From the NCBI GenBank assembly GCA_013177995.1, contig JABLXN010000003.1, positions 1 through 64,000 on the forward strand: a stretch of DNA of 64,000 nucleotides, read 5' to 3'. The notes below the pieces were generated by a model. The model was not told the DNA's origin. It did no database searches and worked only from the letters and a program-made list of their open reading frames with translations. Positions within the stretch are counted from its first letter, which is position 1. Every line of letters begins with the position of its first letter. Below, piece after piece: positions 1 to 52,748 of the stretch. The DNA comes from Brevinematales bacterium. Lineage in GTDB: Bacteria; Spirochaetota; Brevinematia; Brevinematales; Thermospiraceae. A program made the translations under genes and the position numbers.

Positions 1-127
1 CAAAGGTGAGGAGATAGCCCGTTATCCATGGAAAGAAAAAGTTGAAAATTCCACCAGGTAGAGGTACACTTATGAGGTATTCAGTTTCTATGTGGAAATA
101 CCCCTTCTGTTAATGTGTGGAACGACA
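1..127. repeat. Right-hand end of a large-repeat copy (partial)
   Basis: The 12 bases at 116-127 (TGTGGAACGACA) are identical to the right boundary of the 51866-52708 repeat. The stretch at about 76-97 (AGGTATTCAGTTTC then ATGTGGAA) resembles 52680-52702. The rest of 1-75 shows no clear similarity, and any remaining part lies outside the window. No gene is visible here; the short reading frames starting at 115 and 117 have no family features. Confidence 0.45.
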
Positions 128-203
128 AAACAAAAGAAAATACCCTCTTGAGCATATTTTTCCTAATAACCTTCTCCCTGAAACCCCTTTTCATAATAAA
201 CAT

Positions 204-25433: not shown

Positions 25434-25451
25434 CCAAGAAGTAAAATATTC

Positions 25452-25617
25452 TGAGACCTTTGCACGAATGTGCGAAGGTCTCAAAAAAGTAGTAAAAAAC
25501 AAAAAATAGTATAAAAATGTTTCTTAACGTAATAAATAAAACTATTCCTTTGAACAAAAAAAGACAAATAAGCCCTTGTAAATGGAAAAAGCGGGGGAGA
25601 GGGGCGTAGCCCCTGAC
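25452..25617 (+). repeat. 168-bp-class intergenic repeat, copy 1
   Basis: Begins with a hairpin (GAGACCTTTGCAC, loop GAAT, and the complementary arm with one G-T pair; 25453-25482). An A/T-rich stretch follows with AATAAATAAA, then AAGACAAATAAGCCCTTGTA and GCGGGGGAGAGGGGCGTAGC, ending in CCCCTGAC with a GGGGC-GTA-GCCCC stem at 25601-25613. The reverse complement of almost the whole unit recurs at 34473-34640. It lies between two convergent genes. No reading frame of substance is present. The remaining gap to 25792 holds a small GCACG/CGTGC stem near 25628-25646 and nothing else recognisable. Confidence 0.8.
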
Positions 25618-25792
25618 CTAGAAAGGGCACGAAAGCACCCGTGCAAGGGTCTCTTTTTTTAGACCTCTCCTTTTCTCAAAAAGATGTCGTATAAACTATT
25701 AAAATAAAAAGAGATAGAAGCGTTTTCTTTGAAGAAAGGAGATATCTCCTCCCCTTCCTGCGTGTCCTCTCCCCCGAGAAATACCCCACCAA

Positions 25793-34294: not shown

Positions 34295-34472
34295 GAGTCC
34301 TCCTCATTTATGTATCGGACAAAAAGAAAAAAAATAGAGAAAAAAGACCTTTTTCAAAAAGAAATTGCTTTTTTATCTCTTCTTTCTTTCATATCTCCCG
34401 GGGCTTCCCCGGAGTGAGAAAAGCGATAACTTGATAGAAACCTCCACACGGATGTTTTCTTCCCCTGTCTGC

Positions 34473-34640
34473 GTCAGGGGCTACGCCCCTCTCCCCCGCT
34501 TTTTCTGTTTACAAGGGCTTATTTGTCTTTTTTATTCAAAAAAATTGGTTTATTTATTACAGTACGGAATATTTTGATACTAATTTTTGTTTCTTTATTA
34601 CTTTTTTGAGACCTTTGCACGAATGTGCAAAGGTCTCAAA
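34473..34640 (-). repeat. 168-bp-class intergenic repeat, copy 2 (inverted)
   Basis: The reverse complement of the 25452-25617 element with few changes over the whole length. Its hairpin (34605-34640) is a perfect 16-bp stem with the loop GAAT. A single 17-bp arm of the 79-bp element follows at 34657-34673. The element lies in the 444-base gap between the HEAT-repeat gene and the glycosylase gene; the remainder of that gap (34295-34472, 34674-34738) shows only A/T-rich leader sequence and a CGGGG/CCCCGG stem near 34399-34414. Confidence 0.8.
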
Positions 34641-34738
34641 GAAATAAAACCCTTTTTTTTGAAAAAAGGAGAGATCGTTCCACACCCCATCCCTTCCCTC
34701 TCCACGTCACAAAAACTCTCCCACATCCTTTTCTCTTT

Positions 34739-42550: not shown

Positions 42551-43312
42551 TGTCGTTCCACACTCATACAGAATGAATATCTTCACACAAAAACTGAATA
42601 CTTGTTCAACCATTTTTCTTCTTTCAATTTTGGGCCACTTTTGTTACTCATCTTCCTTCTTCTACGAAGCGCTCCCGCGTGGGGCAAAAAGGTCTTGTCC
42701 TCGTCGCATGCTACGCATGCGCCTCGGACGGAAGTTCGGCCGCTTTTGCGGGCCATGGGAGAACGTTTCTCCTGGGAGGGCAAGTCCTTCCTCCGTGGGC
42801 GACCTCAACTTGTCCTCCTGACTTCGGAAGCATAGCGCCCACCTTGCTTCGCCGATTCCCCGCCAAAGCGGGGTCCCCGCGGCTATGCTTCGGTGGGCTT
42901 TTCGGGCAGGGCAACAGAAGAGGTCGCCCCGGACACCTCCTGTGTCCTCCCATCGGAAGGACTTGCCCATCAGGAGTACAAAGGGCCCTGTTCACAACCG
43001 CAAAAGCGGCCTGTGGGGGTACAGAAAAAAAAGGGGGATGAAAAAAGAACGGGGCTCTTTCTCCAGGAAGGACCTCTCTCACCCCCCCACCGCAGGCAGG
43101 GGCGGGACTATGGCGATGTTTCAGCAACAGGGAACTGTGGGGGATAGAGGAGCCCGGCTATCACCCTGTTTCAGCCAAGGTTGTGCAAACGTGAGCGAGT
43201 AGCTATTACCATGTTTCGGCAAAAACCTCCGCTTCTGGCTGAAACATAGTGATAGCCATGTCTTGCCGCCATGTTTTCAAGACGAACTTTTCCCTCTTCC
43301 CGTCTCATAAGA
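42551..43312. repeat. Large GC-rich repeat, copy A
   Basis: Begins with TGTCGTTCCACAC at 42551-42563. The first 230 bases (to about 42800) and the last 200 (from about 43093) are close to the copy at 51866-52708, whereas the middle is unrelated. The terminal section holds a motif like GCTATCACCATGTTTCAGC at 43108, 43157 and 43202 and inverted at 43237-43257. It is much more GC-rich than the flanking DNA. Several open frames overlap each other on both strands but none is conserved between the copies, so I call no gene. It fills most of the gap 42465-43543. Confidence 0.75.
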
Positions 43313-43342
43313 GAGCCCTTTGCACGAATGTGCAAAGGGCTC
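43313..43342. repeat. Third copy of the GAAT-loop hairpin
   Basis: GAGCCCTTTGCAC (43313-43325), loop GAAT, GTGCAAAGGGCTC (43330-43342): a perfect 13-bp stem. Compared with the copies at 25453 and 34608 one A-T pair is replaced by C-G on both arms. It marks the right edge of large repeat A. A TATAAT sits at 43394-43399 in the leader of the following gene without a good partner. Confidence 0.7.
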
Positions 43343-48031: not shown

Positions 48032-51000
48032 CTACCGCAAATACAAACCATCGACACCAATCTTGCCCGGACCATTGAGAACATAAATCCCGGCTGAGTT
48101 AGCTTTGACAGTAAAGGTAATAGTACCATTATTCACCGTAATCACATTCCCCGTCACGGCATCTCGATAGGTTCCATTACGCACTCCAGAAACGGTAATC
48201 GTCTGCTGACTTCCGATGGTAAGTCCAACCACTACATAACTCTCACCATTGTTGTAATCTCGGACAAAACTGATTCCACTTCCCCATTCGTTTACCTGCT
48301 GCATGGGAGCCTTTTGCAGAGCAGGAATAGCCCGACGAATTTGATTGAGACGTTTGATATGCTGATAGAGAGGATGAGACTGGGTTGTAGAAATCTTTGT
48401 AGCCGTCAGATTATCCCCATAGTAGGCTCTTCCAGTCTGATCAATAGTCATGGTAGCATTCACAATATCCTGTGGAGCCCCTTTCTGAAATTCAATTTCC
48501 TCTCCATAGTACAGACAAGGTATTCCTCGAATCGTCCAGAGAAGATTGTAGGCAGCCGCAGCCATCCATTGTTCCCCTTTGAAGCGGTACATAAAATCAT
48601 TATCAGGTCCCACGTCGTGATTTTGTAGGAAAGTGACAAGTTTTGTTGCGTCCCCATAGACCCAGTCCATGGCAAGAATACCGCCAACCCCACTGAACGA
48701 TCCCTTGCTTACATTATCTCTAAAGGTAGAGAAAAGCGAGAAATCCAATACCGAGAACCCTGAATCTCCACCCGAGTTGGGATTGTTTTCATCATTGCCG
48801 AGACGTGTATACCACCAGGGACGAAGCCTTGAAGGAGCATTGTCTCCCCCTAAGTTTCCCCACCCTGTACCTTTGACCAGGTTCTCACCAAAGACAAAGA
48901 GAGAGGGCTTTCTGGCCTTCCAGCGATTCACAAAACCGTTGAGCAGGCTACTACGTTCCACATGTTTCACCGTATCAAGACGAATCGCATCAACCCCCAT
49001 ATCAAGATAGCGATAGATAGCTTCATTGATATAATTTCTGACCACTTCACTCTCGGTATTGAGGTCAATACAATCACCCGCCATACTGGTTACCCAGAGT
49101 CTCTCAGGATTTTCCCAATCGCCGCCCTGTACATAACCAGCCTGGTGATACCAATCATTGATGGTCGTTCCAGCTACAGTCGTGCCCGTCAGAGGATAGA
49201 ATGTTCCAAAGAATTTCCCGCCATCGTTAATATTGAGAGGAGCACCGGTTACCTGATCATAGATAACATTGGTACCATAAGGATCACTTGTCTGGTAGGC
49301 TTTGAACCAGGAGGGAGCGATGGGGTTGTCATTGTCCTCCCGATAAGGATGTTTGTAGTCGCCGAGATTGTAGAGATATGGCCAGTTTGCCCAGTTAGTG
49401 GAACTCACCGGCGTTCCCTGAGGTCGGAAGTATTTGATGGGATAACGAGAGAGCCACACCTTACCACGAATCCCATAGCTTGAGGAGTGATTGACCACCA
49501 CATCCATCACTATCTTGAGCCCTTTGGCATGAGCGGCATTGATCAGATCCTGAAAGGTAGCCCCAGGGGATTCAAGACGGGGATCCACCTTTGTCCAGTC
49601 ATAAATATGATATCCATGATAGTCGAGACCACTTCTGTTCTCAAATGGGGGAGTAATCCAGATAGCAGTGAAACCAAGGTCTTTGATATAATCTAACTTC
49701 TCAATGAGCCCTTTGAAGTCTCCTCTCCAGTGAGGATCTCCCACCTTGATACGATCACGATTATAATAATTGTTGTTAGGATCACCATCATAGAAGCGAG
49801 TGGTGATCACAAAGTAAATCGTCTCCTCTCGAAAATCCACACCTGTAGGCTGGCTTCCCACCACCACACTCACACTGTCCTCAGCCGTATTGCCCGCTGT
49901 ATTACTCACCTGAACACGTACCGTTTTTGTCCCTGCTGTGCTAAAGGTGAGAGAAATAGCTGCTGTCGCGGAGAAGGCTGTATCCCATGTCCCGTTCCCA
50001 TCCGTATCCCAGCGAAAACGAAGGGCAGAAAGGCTATCCTTCTCATCATAGGAGTTGGAAGCATTGAAAAAGAAGGTCGTGGATGTGGTTCCAGTCGTCG
50101 GAGAAGCACTCAAAACAGGAATAGGAATACGAACCATGCGGAAGGTCACCGAATTGGTAGTCGAACAAAGCCCTGCGGTGTCCTTCGCATAGACATAGAC
50201 TCTGTTTGTCCCCTCAGGCAGGTCATAGATAACCCTCCAGTTAGAACTATTGGCATCCACCAAAACAAAACTGCCATTATTGGTTTTGACATACACACCG
50301 GCCACTCCCCTGTTATCCCACACCGTCCCCTGAATGGTAATCGTAGGCGTTTTGGCACTGGAATTATTGGTTGGGGAAGTAATAGTCACCACAGGTCTTG
50401 TTGTATCCGGACCATTGGGATTGTTGGTCGTTATCATACCATTGGATACCCAGATCTCTCTGTCAGATGTTCTGTAGTCCATATTATTGTTATTGTCCCA
50501 GGTACCACTTCCATTGTTGAACACAAAGGTAAGAACATTGGAATACATCGGAATTTCTTTCACATACCAGGAGCCGCCCTCTGCTGCCATCGTTTGACCA
50601 GGAACAGAAGTCCATCCCAGCCCATTATTATAGTGAATATTGACTGTTGTCCACCCTGTGCGAAAATAGTGGACCTTGATACTATTGGTATTGGTAACCA
50701 CAGAAAGCGATCTGACCACCAGTTTCTCTTCATTTTCATAGTAAATAAATTCATATTTGCCGTTAGCCGGAATAGAAAGGGTAATATTTCCCCCACCCTG
50801 AGCAAGAGAAGTCACCGTCTGGGGAAGAGATGTCCCACTCGAAGAACCAAGCCCTCGGTTGATATCCCAGGCGTTATTCATCGCTAACTTATACGATACA
50901 GAACCAGCAGAAAGAGTAATCTCTCCCCTCCAGACATAGTTCGACACAAGCGTCAATGCGGGAGCAGATGTTGCCGACCAGCTTCCTAAATCTGCCGTAC

Positions 51001-51508
51001 TTCCCGGTACCCTCACGACGGTGTATTTTGACACTGGTCCTGTTGAAGTTGCCACCGTTACCGTAAGTTTCTCCTGTCCCTCGTAATAGGTAAACGTATA
51101 ATAGCCGTTGGAAGGCACAGAAAGGGTAATATTTCCCCCACCCTGAGCAAGAGAACTCACCGTCTGGGGAAGAGATGTCCCACTCGAAGAACCAAGCCCT
51201 CGGTTGATATCCCATGCATTATTCATCGCCAATTTGTACGACACAGAACCTGCCTTGAGATACACAATCCCCTGCCAGACCCCATTGGAGATAAGAGAGA
51301 GCGCCGGCGCCGTAGAAGCCGACCAGTTGGAGAGTTCAGCCACACTCCCCGTCACTCTCACCACAGAATACCCCGAAGAAAAAGTCGCATAGGCAATAGC
51401 AGGGGCCTTCTTTGCCTCTTCGTTTGCCTGCTGCACCTCAGGGGCTGTCAATTGGCATGCCACCAAGAAGACACTCATACCTAATCCCACCAGCCATCGG
51501 TTTTTCAT
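48032..51508 (-). CDS. Multi-module GH13 alpha-amylase lipoprotein with starch-binding domains
   Basis: A 1158-aa surface or periplasmic lipoprotein: signal peptide with lipobox VFLVACQ near residues 11-17. Two near-identical starch-binding-type modules follow (each with SYKLAMNNAWDINRGLGSSS), then a CBM25-like module (FRTGWTTVNIHYNN), a bacterial Ig-like module, a PKD-like module (DTDGNGTWDTAFS), and a GH13 barrel from about residue 530 with C-terminal beta domain. Catalytic residues: Asp in DAIRLDT, Glu in VFGENLV, Asp in FLQNHD. It should cut starch or glycogen outside the cytoplasm. ATG 51508 with AAAAGGAGG is the start; the frame runs back to 51703. Three repeated ATTTCAAGAATAT boxes lie upstream. 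Confidence 0.92.
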   Translation of the reverse strand: MKNRWLVGLGMSVFLVACQLTAPEVQQANEEAKKAPAIAYATFSSGYSVVRVTGSVAELSNWSASTAPALSLISNGVWQGIVYLKAGSVSYKLAMNNAWDINRGLGSSSGTSLPQTVSSLAQGGGNITLSVPSNGYYTFTYYEGQEKLTVTVATSTGPVSKYTVVRVPGSTADLGSWSATSAPALTLVSNYVWRGEITLSAGSVSYKLAMNNAWDINRGLGSSSGTSLPQTVTSLAQGGGNITLSIPANGKYEFIYYENEEKLVVRSLSVVTNTNSIKVHYFRTGWTTVNIHYNNGLGWTSVPGQTMAAEGGSWYVKEIPMYSNVLTFVFNNGSGTWDNNNNMDYRTSDREIWVSNGMITTNNPNGPDTTRPVVTITSPTNNSSAKTPTITIQGTVWDNRGVAGVYVKTNNGSFVLVDANSSNWRVIYDLPEGTNRVYVYAKDTAGLCSTTNSVTFRMVRIPIPVLSASPTTGTTSTTFFFNASNSYDEKDSLSALRFRWDTDGNGTWDTAFSATAAISLTFSTAGTKTVRVQVSNTAGNTAEDSVSVVVGSQPTGVDFREETIYFVITTRFYDGDPNNNYYNRDRIKVGDPHWRGDFKGLIEKLDYIKDLGFTAIWITPPFENRSGLDYHGYHIYDWTKVDPRLESPGATFQDLINAAHAKGLKIVMDVVVNHSSSYGIRGKVWLSRYPIKYFRPQGTPVSSTNWANWPYLYNLGDYKHPYREDNDNPIAPSWFKAYQTSDPYGTNVIYDQVTGAPLNINDGGKFFGTFYPLTGTTVAGTTINDWYHQAGYVQGGDWENPERLWVTSMAGDCIDLNTESEVVRNYINEAIYRYLDMGVDAIRLDTVKHVERSSLLNGFVNRWKARKPSLFVFGENLVKGTGWGNLGGDNAPSRLRPWWYTRLGNDENNPNSGGDSGFSVLDFSLFSTFRDNVSKGSFSGVGGILAMDWVYGDATKLVTFLQNHDVGPDNDFMYRFKGEQWMAAAAYNLLWTIRGIPCLYYGEEIEFQKGAPQDIVNATMTIDQTGRAYYGDNLTATKISTTQSHPLYQHIKRLNQIRRAIPALQKAPMQQVNEWGSGISFVRDYNNGESYVVVGLTIGSQQTITVSGVRNGTYRDAVTGNVITVNNGTITFTVKANSAGIYVLNGPGKIGVDGLYLR

Positions 51509-51784: not shown

Positions 51785-51861
51785 CTCTCCTTTTTTCAAA
51801 AAAGTATCCAAAAAGCCATTGAAATGAAAAGAAATAACAACACGTCATTTGAAAAATAGGA
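51785..51861. repeat. 79-bp palindromic element, copy 2 (diverged)
   Basis: The left arm is identical to the 17-bp arm at 33108; the right arm (about 51847-51861) is decayed. The internal A-rich sequence (CATTGAAATGAAAAGAAATA) resembles 33138-33160. It adjoins the left end of large repeat B. Confidence 0.5.
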
Positions 51862-51865
51862 AATA

Positions 51866-52708
51866 TGCCGTTCCACACACATACAGAATGGTTATCTTCA
51901 CCTAAACACTGAATACTTATTCAACCATTTTTCTTCCTTCAATTTTGGGCCACTTTTGTTACTTATCTTCCTTACTTCTACGAAGCGCTCCCGCGCGGGG
52001 CAGAAGGGGCCTTGTCCTCGCCCTATGCTCTCGCATGCGCCCCGGACGGAAGTTCGGCCGCTTTTGCGGGCCATGGGAGGACGTTTCTCTTCGGAGGGTA
52101 AGTCCTTCCTCCGAAGGCGACCCCCACTCCTCCTCCTGACGTTGGGAGAAGCACTTCCGTGCGGGACAAAAGGGGCTCCGCCCCTTTTGAAATCCCCGCC
52201 CCGCCCCTGCACCGGTTTCTGTAGCATTCCGTCCACCGTCTCATCTTGCTGGCTGGAAGAAAAACCTGTAGTCTCCCTCTCTTCTGTAGCCGCCCGGGGA
52301 CAGACCTCCATGTCTGACCCCGGTCTTCCTCGCCACCTCCTGTGGCTCGGACATCGGCAGGAGAACGGGACCTTCTCCCACCAGCCCGCATGGCTTCAAC
52401 CCCCTTCGGGGCTTCTCTCACCCTGCACCGTAGCAGAGGCGGGGATGGGCTATGGCGATGTTTCAGCAACAGGAAACCGTATGGGGATAGAAGAACCCGG
52501 GGCTATCACCATATTTCAGCAGAACAACCGTTAGGTTAAACGTTTAACCAGCGAAACCTTTGGCTGAAACATGGTAATAGCCATATTTTGCTGCCATGTT
52601 TTCAAGGCCAACTTTTTCCTATCACGTATCATAACAGAAAGTTTTTGGATTATTTTCCTTCTTTGTCAAATGTGGAGATAGGTATCCAGTTTCATATGTG
52701 GAACGACA
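51866..52708. repeat. Large GC-rich repeat, copy B, with inverted ends
   Basis: Starts TGCCGTTCCACA (51866-51877) and ends TGTGGAACGACA (52697-52708), an 11/12 inverted match. Left 230 and right 200 bases match copy A; the middle differs and includes GGGGC-TCC-GCCCC-type stems. The motif GCTATGGCGATGTTTCAGC occurs at 52449, 52501 and inverted at 52562-52582, with a perfect 16-bp palindrome GGTTAAACGTTTAACC at 52534-52549. No gene is called. It accounts for most of the 1.3-kb gap between the amylase and ABC-transporter genes; 51599-51784 before it shows only A/T-rich DNA. Confidence 0.75.
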
Positions 52709-52748
52709 CTTAAAAAATAAGAAAATAATAGCCCCACCATCCACTTTT

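Follow-up and report, generated by a model that had tools for sequence, protein, structure and literature searches.

Non-autonomous derivatives of insertion sequences are a known kind of mobile DNA, and those without genes are usually short, AT-rich and uniform. Among insertion sequences, the IS1202 group is characterised by TGT/ACA ends, target duplications of 16-28 bp and family transposases of 394-507 aa (PMC10132070). Here we describe dozens of large, GC-rich and modular gene-less copies in a Brevinematales-type spirochaete. Their exchangeable cargo includes a folded, covarying segment that matches no Rfam family, together with operator-like sites and the sites of a second transposon. The stretch analysed (the window) comprises bases 1-64000 of contig C23 in a genome of 2.38 Mb and 57 contigs (G000), which was compared with two genomes of the same genus, G001 and G002 (the latter a single contig of 2.5 Mb). 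The focal element, copy B (Table 1), is located between two divergently transcribed genes. Copy B is very likely a non-autonomous element that an IS1202-like insertion sequence mobilises in trans and whose cargo forms a recombining mosaic of other repeats.

Table 1. Features of the gene-less elements and their surroundings, in window coordinates.
Feature	Position	Strand	Basis or remark
Copy B, entire gene-less element of 843 bp	51866..52708	+	both ends common to at least 27 other two-ended copies and the full insertion sequence
Left end, module L1: terminal repeat TGCCGTTCCACA and subterminal ..CACTGAATAC	51866..51926	+	78% identity over 51 bp with the left end of the insertion sequence
Right end, module R2, terminal repeat TGTGGAACGACA	52641..52708	+	52657-52708: 94% identity over 52 bp with the right end of the insertion sequence
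Left flank, decayed target-site duplication TTTGAAAAATAGGAAATA	51848..51865	+	matches right flank 11/12 ungapped
Right flank, decayed target-site duplication CTTAAAAAATAAGAAAATA	52709..52727	+	flank comparison; exact 17-19-bp duplications at other copies
Joint sequence GAAGCGCTCCCGCGCGGGGC.., copy 1	51982..52009	+	at ~position 116 in most copies
Joint sequence, copy 2; the pair encloses module X3-X4	52148..52175	+	pair also found as direct repeat D7
Module X3-X4, common to copy A	52011..52148	+	33 copies in own genome, 69-100% identical
Module B1-B2, missing from copy A	52149..52440	+	occurs 22 times in the genome, at 75-100% identity
R1, conserved folded RNA-like core	52244..52393	-	covariance model match 159.8 bits; 13 covarying pairs
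M site (~19-20 bp)	52448..52467	+	M-site mapping
M site	52501..52520	+	M-site mapping
P palindrome GGTTAAACGTTTAACC, LacI-type operator-like	52534..52549	+	site counts; position upstream of a LacI-family regulator
M site, inverted	52563..52582	-	M-site mapping
Copy A of the same family, which has lost its right terminal repeat; modules L1-L2-X3-X4-A1-A2-R0-M	42551..43314	+	
End of full-length insertion-sequence copy; contig begins within; terminal repeat 116-127	1..128	-	

Gene-less copies and the partner insertion sequence

The original prediction described a GC-rich repeat with inverted ends and a swapped middle, and each of these traits is borne out. The terminal repeats of copy B, starting at 51866 and ending at 52708, agree inversely at 11 of 12 positions. 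G+C reaches 61-62% in the cores and 53-54.5% in whole copies, above the 45.9% of the window. Copies A and B resemble each other at their ends (88% over the left 280 bp, 71% over the right ~240 bp) and differ in their middles. Copy A does belong to the family, but it had been taken for a full copy and lacks an intact right end: the last ~70 bp are lost, homology ends at ~43314 and a separate hairpin follows. The predicted third right end at 116-127 is likewise a real end, though one of a full insertion sequence in reverse orientation rather than of a third gene-less copy. The window also holds another repeat family, a ~200-bp inverted pair at 25449-25654 and 34436-34646 that begins with the hairpin GAGACCTTTGCACGAATGTGCAAAGGTCTC; this hairpin also adjoins copy A and IS1595-like genes.

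Searches of the whole genome with the two ends recovered 47 matches for the first 235 bp of copy B (copy A at E 2e-81) and 89 for the last 289 bp. Pairing of ends at the matching loci yielded at least 28 two-ended copies without the partner transposase (565-2410 bp), many single ends and three full insertion sequences (1365-1372 bp) that have the same ends as the gene-less copies. Dozens of further copies exist, and no conserved open frame runs through them. A transposase gene is missing inside the gene-less copies, most of which hold no long frame beyond expectation; exceptions holding other genes are found on contigs C32 (ISH6-like) and C4 (IS1595-like). The C32 cassette (2410 bp) contains a nested ISH6/ISLre2-like transposase gene (L168, 3111-4343). 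Element modules occur also outside two-ended copies (C10, C36, C25), hence transposition by shared ends is not the sole route of spread.

The full element has TGT...ACA termini with imperfect terminal repeats (TGTCGTTCCACA / TGTGGAACGACA) and encodes a transposase of 404 aa (L056, 1583-2797). The transposase is intact in two of the three full elements, with the C8 copy open and the C12 copy carrying one internal stop. Both NCBIfam matches, ISNCY_2 (E 2.5e-37, 128.9 bits, cut-off 250) and IS481 (E 4e-35, 121.6 bits, cut-off 224), score under the curated cut-offs, which makes any family name approximate. The protein is ~24% identical to ISNCY-annotated plasmid proteins, its rve domain (E 2e-5) falls under the cut-off, and the D, D and E residues were picked by eye in the L056 protein. 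Several contigs start or stop inside further copies of the full element, a probable cause of the assembly breaks.

Most target duplications measure 17-19 bp, and full and gene-less forms do not differ in this length, which is the strongest evidence for one transposase moving both. An exact 18-bp duplication flanks two of the three full insertion sequences, and exact duplications of 17-19 bp occur at C3:36217, C13:7363 and C2:11998, with AACACCCGTGCAAGGGTC on either side of the gene-less copy C3:36217-37378. A duplication score of at least 7 was reached by 17 of 31 true flank pairs versus 7 of 930 mismatched pairs under the same scoring. The duplication is not clear at 14 of the 31 copies, and that of copy B has decayed to the best ungapped stretch given in Table 1.

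No congener analysed carries these copies. A search of 59 relatives, including both congeners, with the 145-bp left end returned only two chance-level matches of 24-33 bp. The nearest named relative is the Brevinematales bacterium SKW221 MAG (locus L061), with 88% identity over the 1223-aa protein encoded beside copy B. In this relative, the genes flanking copy B are collinear and separated by ~370 bp without the element, compared with ~1040 bp here. This interval is free of the element, but its intergenic DNA has diverged too far to define an empty site to the base. The 1223-aa gene itself contains a 188-bp direct repeat (85%; 50721-50908 and 51066-51253), which probably reflects duplication of an internal domain. 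The non-autonomous mobile unit first proposed agrees with the wide dispersal of the copies, with ends that also occur on an element encoding a transposase, with long target duplications and with absence from the syntenic locus of a congener.

We suggest that the partner transposase, ISNCY/IS481-like and in its features nearest to the long-duplication IS1202 group, recognises the ends of copy B. It would have worked in trans, inserting with an 18-bp stagger, and so have spread the ~40 copies through the genome. Interior repeat modules would then be exchanged or deleted by recombination at a recurrent 28-bp joint. In one module lies a conserved folded segment of ~150 nt on the minus strand. The 3' part contains ~19-bp M sites of the kind that also flank an IS1595-like transposase, and a LacI-type operator-like palindrome separates these sites.

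Modular interior and the folded segment R1

Across all copies the modules keep one order: L1-L2 is followed by X3-X4 and/or B1-B2, after which come A1-A2, R0, the M and P sites, and R1-R2. The R1 in this order belongs to the right end and is separate from the folded core R1. The 28-bp joint GAAGCGCTCCCGCGCGGGGCAAAAGGGG and close variants recur at the left of the interior in most copies and directly before B1 in B-bearing copies, and both positions are occupied in copy B (51982, 52148), around X3-X4. Among the 27 informative two-ended copies, 11 contain X only, nine B only and seven both. Deletion or exchange between joints would explain the X and B states and most swaps of the middle, with the joints themselves pointing to recombination. 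Interiors built from modules that meet at a recurrent sequence match the predicted gene-less cassette with an exchanged middle.

On either strand, the fold of copy B is far more stable than those of shuffled sequences (z -7.5 and -7.1). The copies of module B1-B2 show paired changes in several helices, and homologues are present in G002, where one helix is quite different in sequence and pairing is kept. In a minus-strand alignment of 21 R1 sequences, 96.6% of cells are paired and 13 pairs are changed on both sides. Double-change cells number 35 versus 6.3 +/- 2.4 in shuffled and at most 8 in slid alignments. A covariance model run on 393 genomes of the phylum matched only the own species and G002, at least seven times each, with no match in the congener G001; on the extracted loci it gave 27 matches in G000 and 7 in G002. 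Helices 1, 3 and 4 are 94-99% paired in G002 and helix 2 is 21% paired. Helix 2 is not formed there, thus the claim for R1 is limited to helices 1, 3 and 4. The window contains no Rfam match at gathering thresholds and only chance-level matches at a relaxed threshold, and a tRNA scan returned nothing. Judged by this alignment, R1 is a conserved folded segment of ~150 nt with strong covariation, outside Rfam. The G-U pairs speak for an RNA read from the minus strand, though much of this signal lies in helix 2, and R1 would presumably be transcribed. The paired changes could also arise by arm-to-arm correction of palindromes.

A cellular role of R1 is possible. In G002, R1 copies lie between genes at 389-404 kb (clustered), 2172-2175 kb and 1632 kb (L303-L305). 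In L305, and judged by sequence also in L286/L288, the gene following R1 codes for a common ..MTAAYxNTDLGVGxMVGSWAGSWAGNIFGG.. segment, suggesting module arrays. Pfam searches of the genes beside R1 in G002 gave no match except one NADase_transloc domain, and for this reason a reading of these loci as toxin modules stays a guess. We raise only tentatively, as a rather unlikely idea, that R1 represents a new genus-specific class of structured nucleic acid, either an RNA or a single-stranded DNA recombination site. Such a class would travel on gene-less mobile elements in one species, would occupy the borders of gene modules in the other, and would act in trans or as a recombination joint and not as passive filler.

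M sites, P palindromes and alternative explanations

Counts of the M site (GCTMTNNCCNTNTYNCAG) are 240 in G000, 482 in G002 and one in G001, against 0-1 for a reversed-pattern control. An IS1595-like gene is bracketed by M in all three genomes. The M variants of G000 and G002 differ (..TTTCAG vs ..TTGCAG), and the corresponding transposases are 44% identical. The M-bracketed gene matches the IS1595 zinc ribbon PF12760 over the cut-off (43.8 bits) and the DDE domain PF12762 just under it. Members of the IS1595 family generate 8-bp target duplications; the two IS1595-like copies in G000 show no flank duplication by eye, with their exact boundaries uncertain. In G002 (L231-L250), degenerate M sites of ~19 bp form long arrays with a 30-40-bp pitch, which surround a 266-aa IS1595-like transposase at many loci. 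Reiterated and extended ends of this kind are unusual for a bacterial insertion sequence. Readings of M as a coding repeat, a DNA uptake sequence or parS were dropped given the clustered 30-40-bp pitch, variable positions off-codon and a lack of resemblance to parS by eye. M was also rejected as the boundary of the transposable cassette, as boundaries track the TGTCGTTCCACA ends.

In each of the three congeneric genomes, the P palindrome lies a short distance upstream of a gene for a LacI-family regulator. Sites with at most one mismatch number 52 in G000, 31 in G002 and 4 in G001, and in several G002 elements P lies ~256 bp upstream of the IS1595-like gene. The LacI-family regulator at L230 (1674-2726), which has P just upstream of its own start codon, is plausibly the autoregulated owner of these operator-like sites and might bind them. 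A GC-rich island beside an apparent GroEL-like gene (L180, 2840-3930) carries M and P alternating ~75 bp apart, without insertion-sequence ends.

The covariation of R1 bears on whether the GC-rich modules are a functional unit under selection, such as a host non-coding RNA or a recombination element folding as single-stranded DNA, later flanked by insertion-sequence ends. We consider this possible but doubtful. R1 covaries across species with helix sequences replaced, and G002 has at least seven R1 copies, between genes at 389-404 kb, though the left end was not found there. The presence of R1 in just two of the 393 phylum genomes, and its absence from the congener G001, argue against a core function, and correction between palindrome arms during replication can produce paired changes without selection. 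It is unlikely that the copies are dead insertion sequences, immobile today, in which the gene was replaced via gene conversion among repeats. Exact 17-19-bp duplications and intact transposases point to fairly recent movement, against which stand the 70-90% identity of copies to one another and the several duplications that are decayed or missing.

Even less probable is that the cassette is the vehicle of an IS1595-like transposon, with M as its terminal repeats and the IS1595-like transposase moving the whole. Apart from the M-bracketed genes in G000, G001 and G002, such a gene does lie within one two-ended cassette (C4:64618-66392). However, M is internal to the cassettes, the cassette limits and the 17-19-bp duplications fall at the terminal repeats of the insertion sequence and not at M, and no obvious duplication flanks the two IS1595-like copies of G000. 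A degenerate protein-coding gene running through all copies is scarcely credible. Some stop-free stretches exceed shuffled maxima, for example 222 codons in copy B, but such long runs are to be expected when G+C is 60%, and those of most copies stay within the shuffled range. Module order, length and indels differ between copies, so that no single frame passes through all of them, and a protein-coding interior was rejected.

Comparison with known mobile elements

Copy B, which we infer from shared ends and duplications to be mobilised in trans by the partner insertion sequence, resembles several described systems; a search of the literature on repeats in Brevinematales found nothing specific. 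If the elements are mobile, LacI-type operators and a structured RNA-like segment would spread into promoter regions, and they would provide a directly testable case of regulatory or RNA cargo travelling without genes.

The partner shares with the IS1202 group (PMC10132070) the 5'-TGT/ACA-3' ends, an extra inner copy of the end sequence near the end, a single, putatively DDE-type transposase (404 aa here) and long duplications (17-19 bp here). It differs by its ~24% identity to ISNCY transposases, NCBIfam scores under cut-off and a length of 1.37 kb, shorter than most members. We therefore liken it to IS1202 by its features rather than regard it as a proven member. Like MITEs and mobile insertion cassettes (PMC10969869), the gene-less copies lack a transposase, carry the terminal repeats of a resident insertion sequence, are flanked by target duplications, lie between genes and form stable folds. 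Unlike these, copies without nested genes are much larger (565-1307 bp), GC-rich rather than AT-rich, and combine a modular, exchangeable interior with sites that belong to another transposon family. TIME mosaic transposons (PMC4133298) are likewise non-autonomous mosaics with modular cores, whereas they have Tn3-family ends, 5-6-bp duplications and gene cargo in place of the IS1202-like ends, 17-19-bp duplications and gene-less cargo found here. Coxiella QMITEs are similar in number (~50 copies) and their sequence is a possible source of structured small RNAs, but they measure 150-400 bp, and cross-species covariation is not mentioned in the parts of the report consulted (PMC5896051). Inverted pairs of ~19-bp M sites forming solo ~55-bp hairpins at many loci recall REP/REPIN palindromes, which differ in that M is linked to an IS1595-like DDE transposase and shows no GTAG tag. 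The assignment of this family to non-autonomous insertion-sequence derivatives, with an unusual GC-rich interior that forms a recombining mosaic, is well supported; such derivatives are known, and the present elements are new in their size, composition, modularity and covarying cargo.
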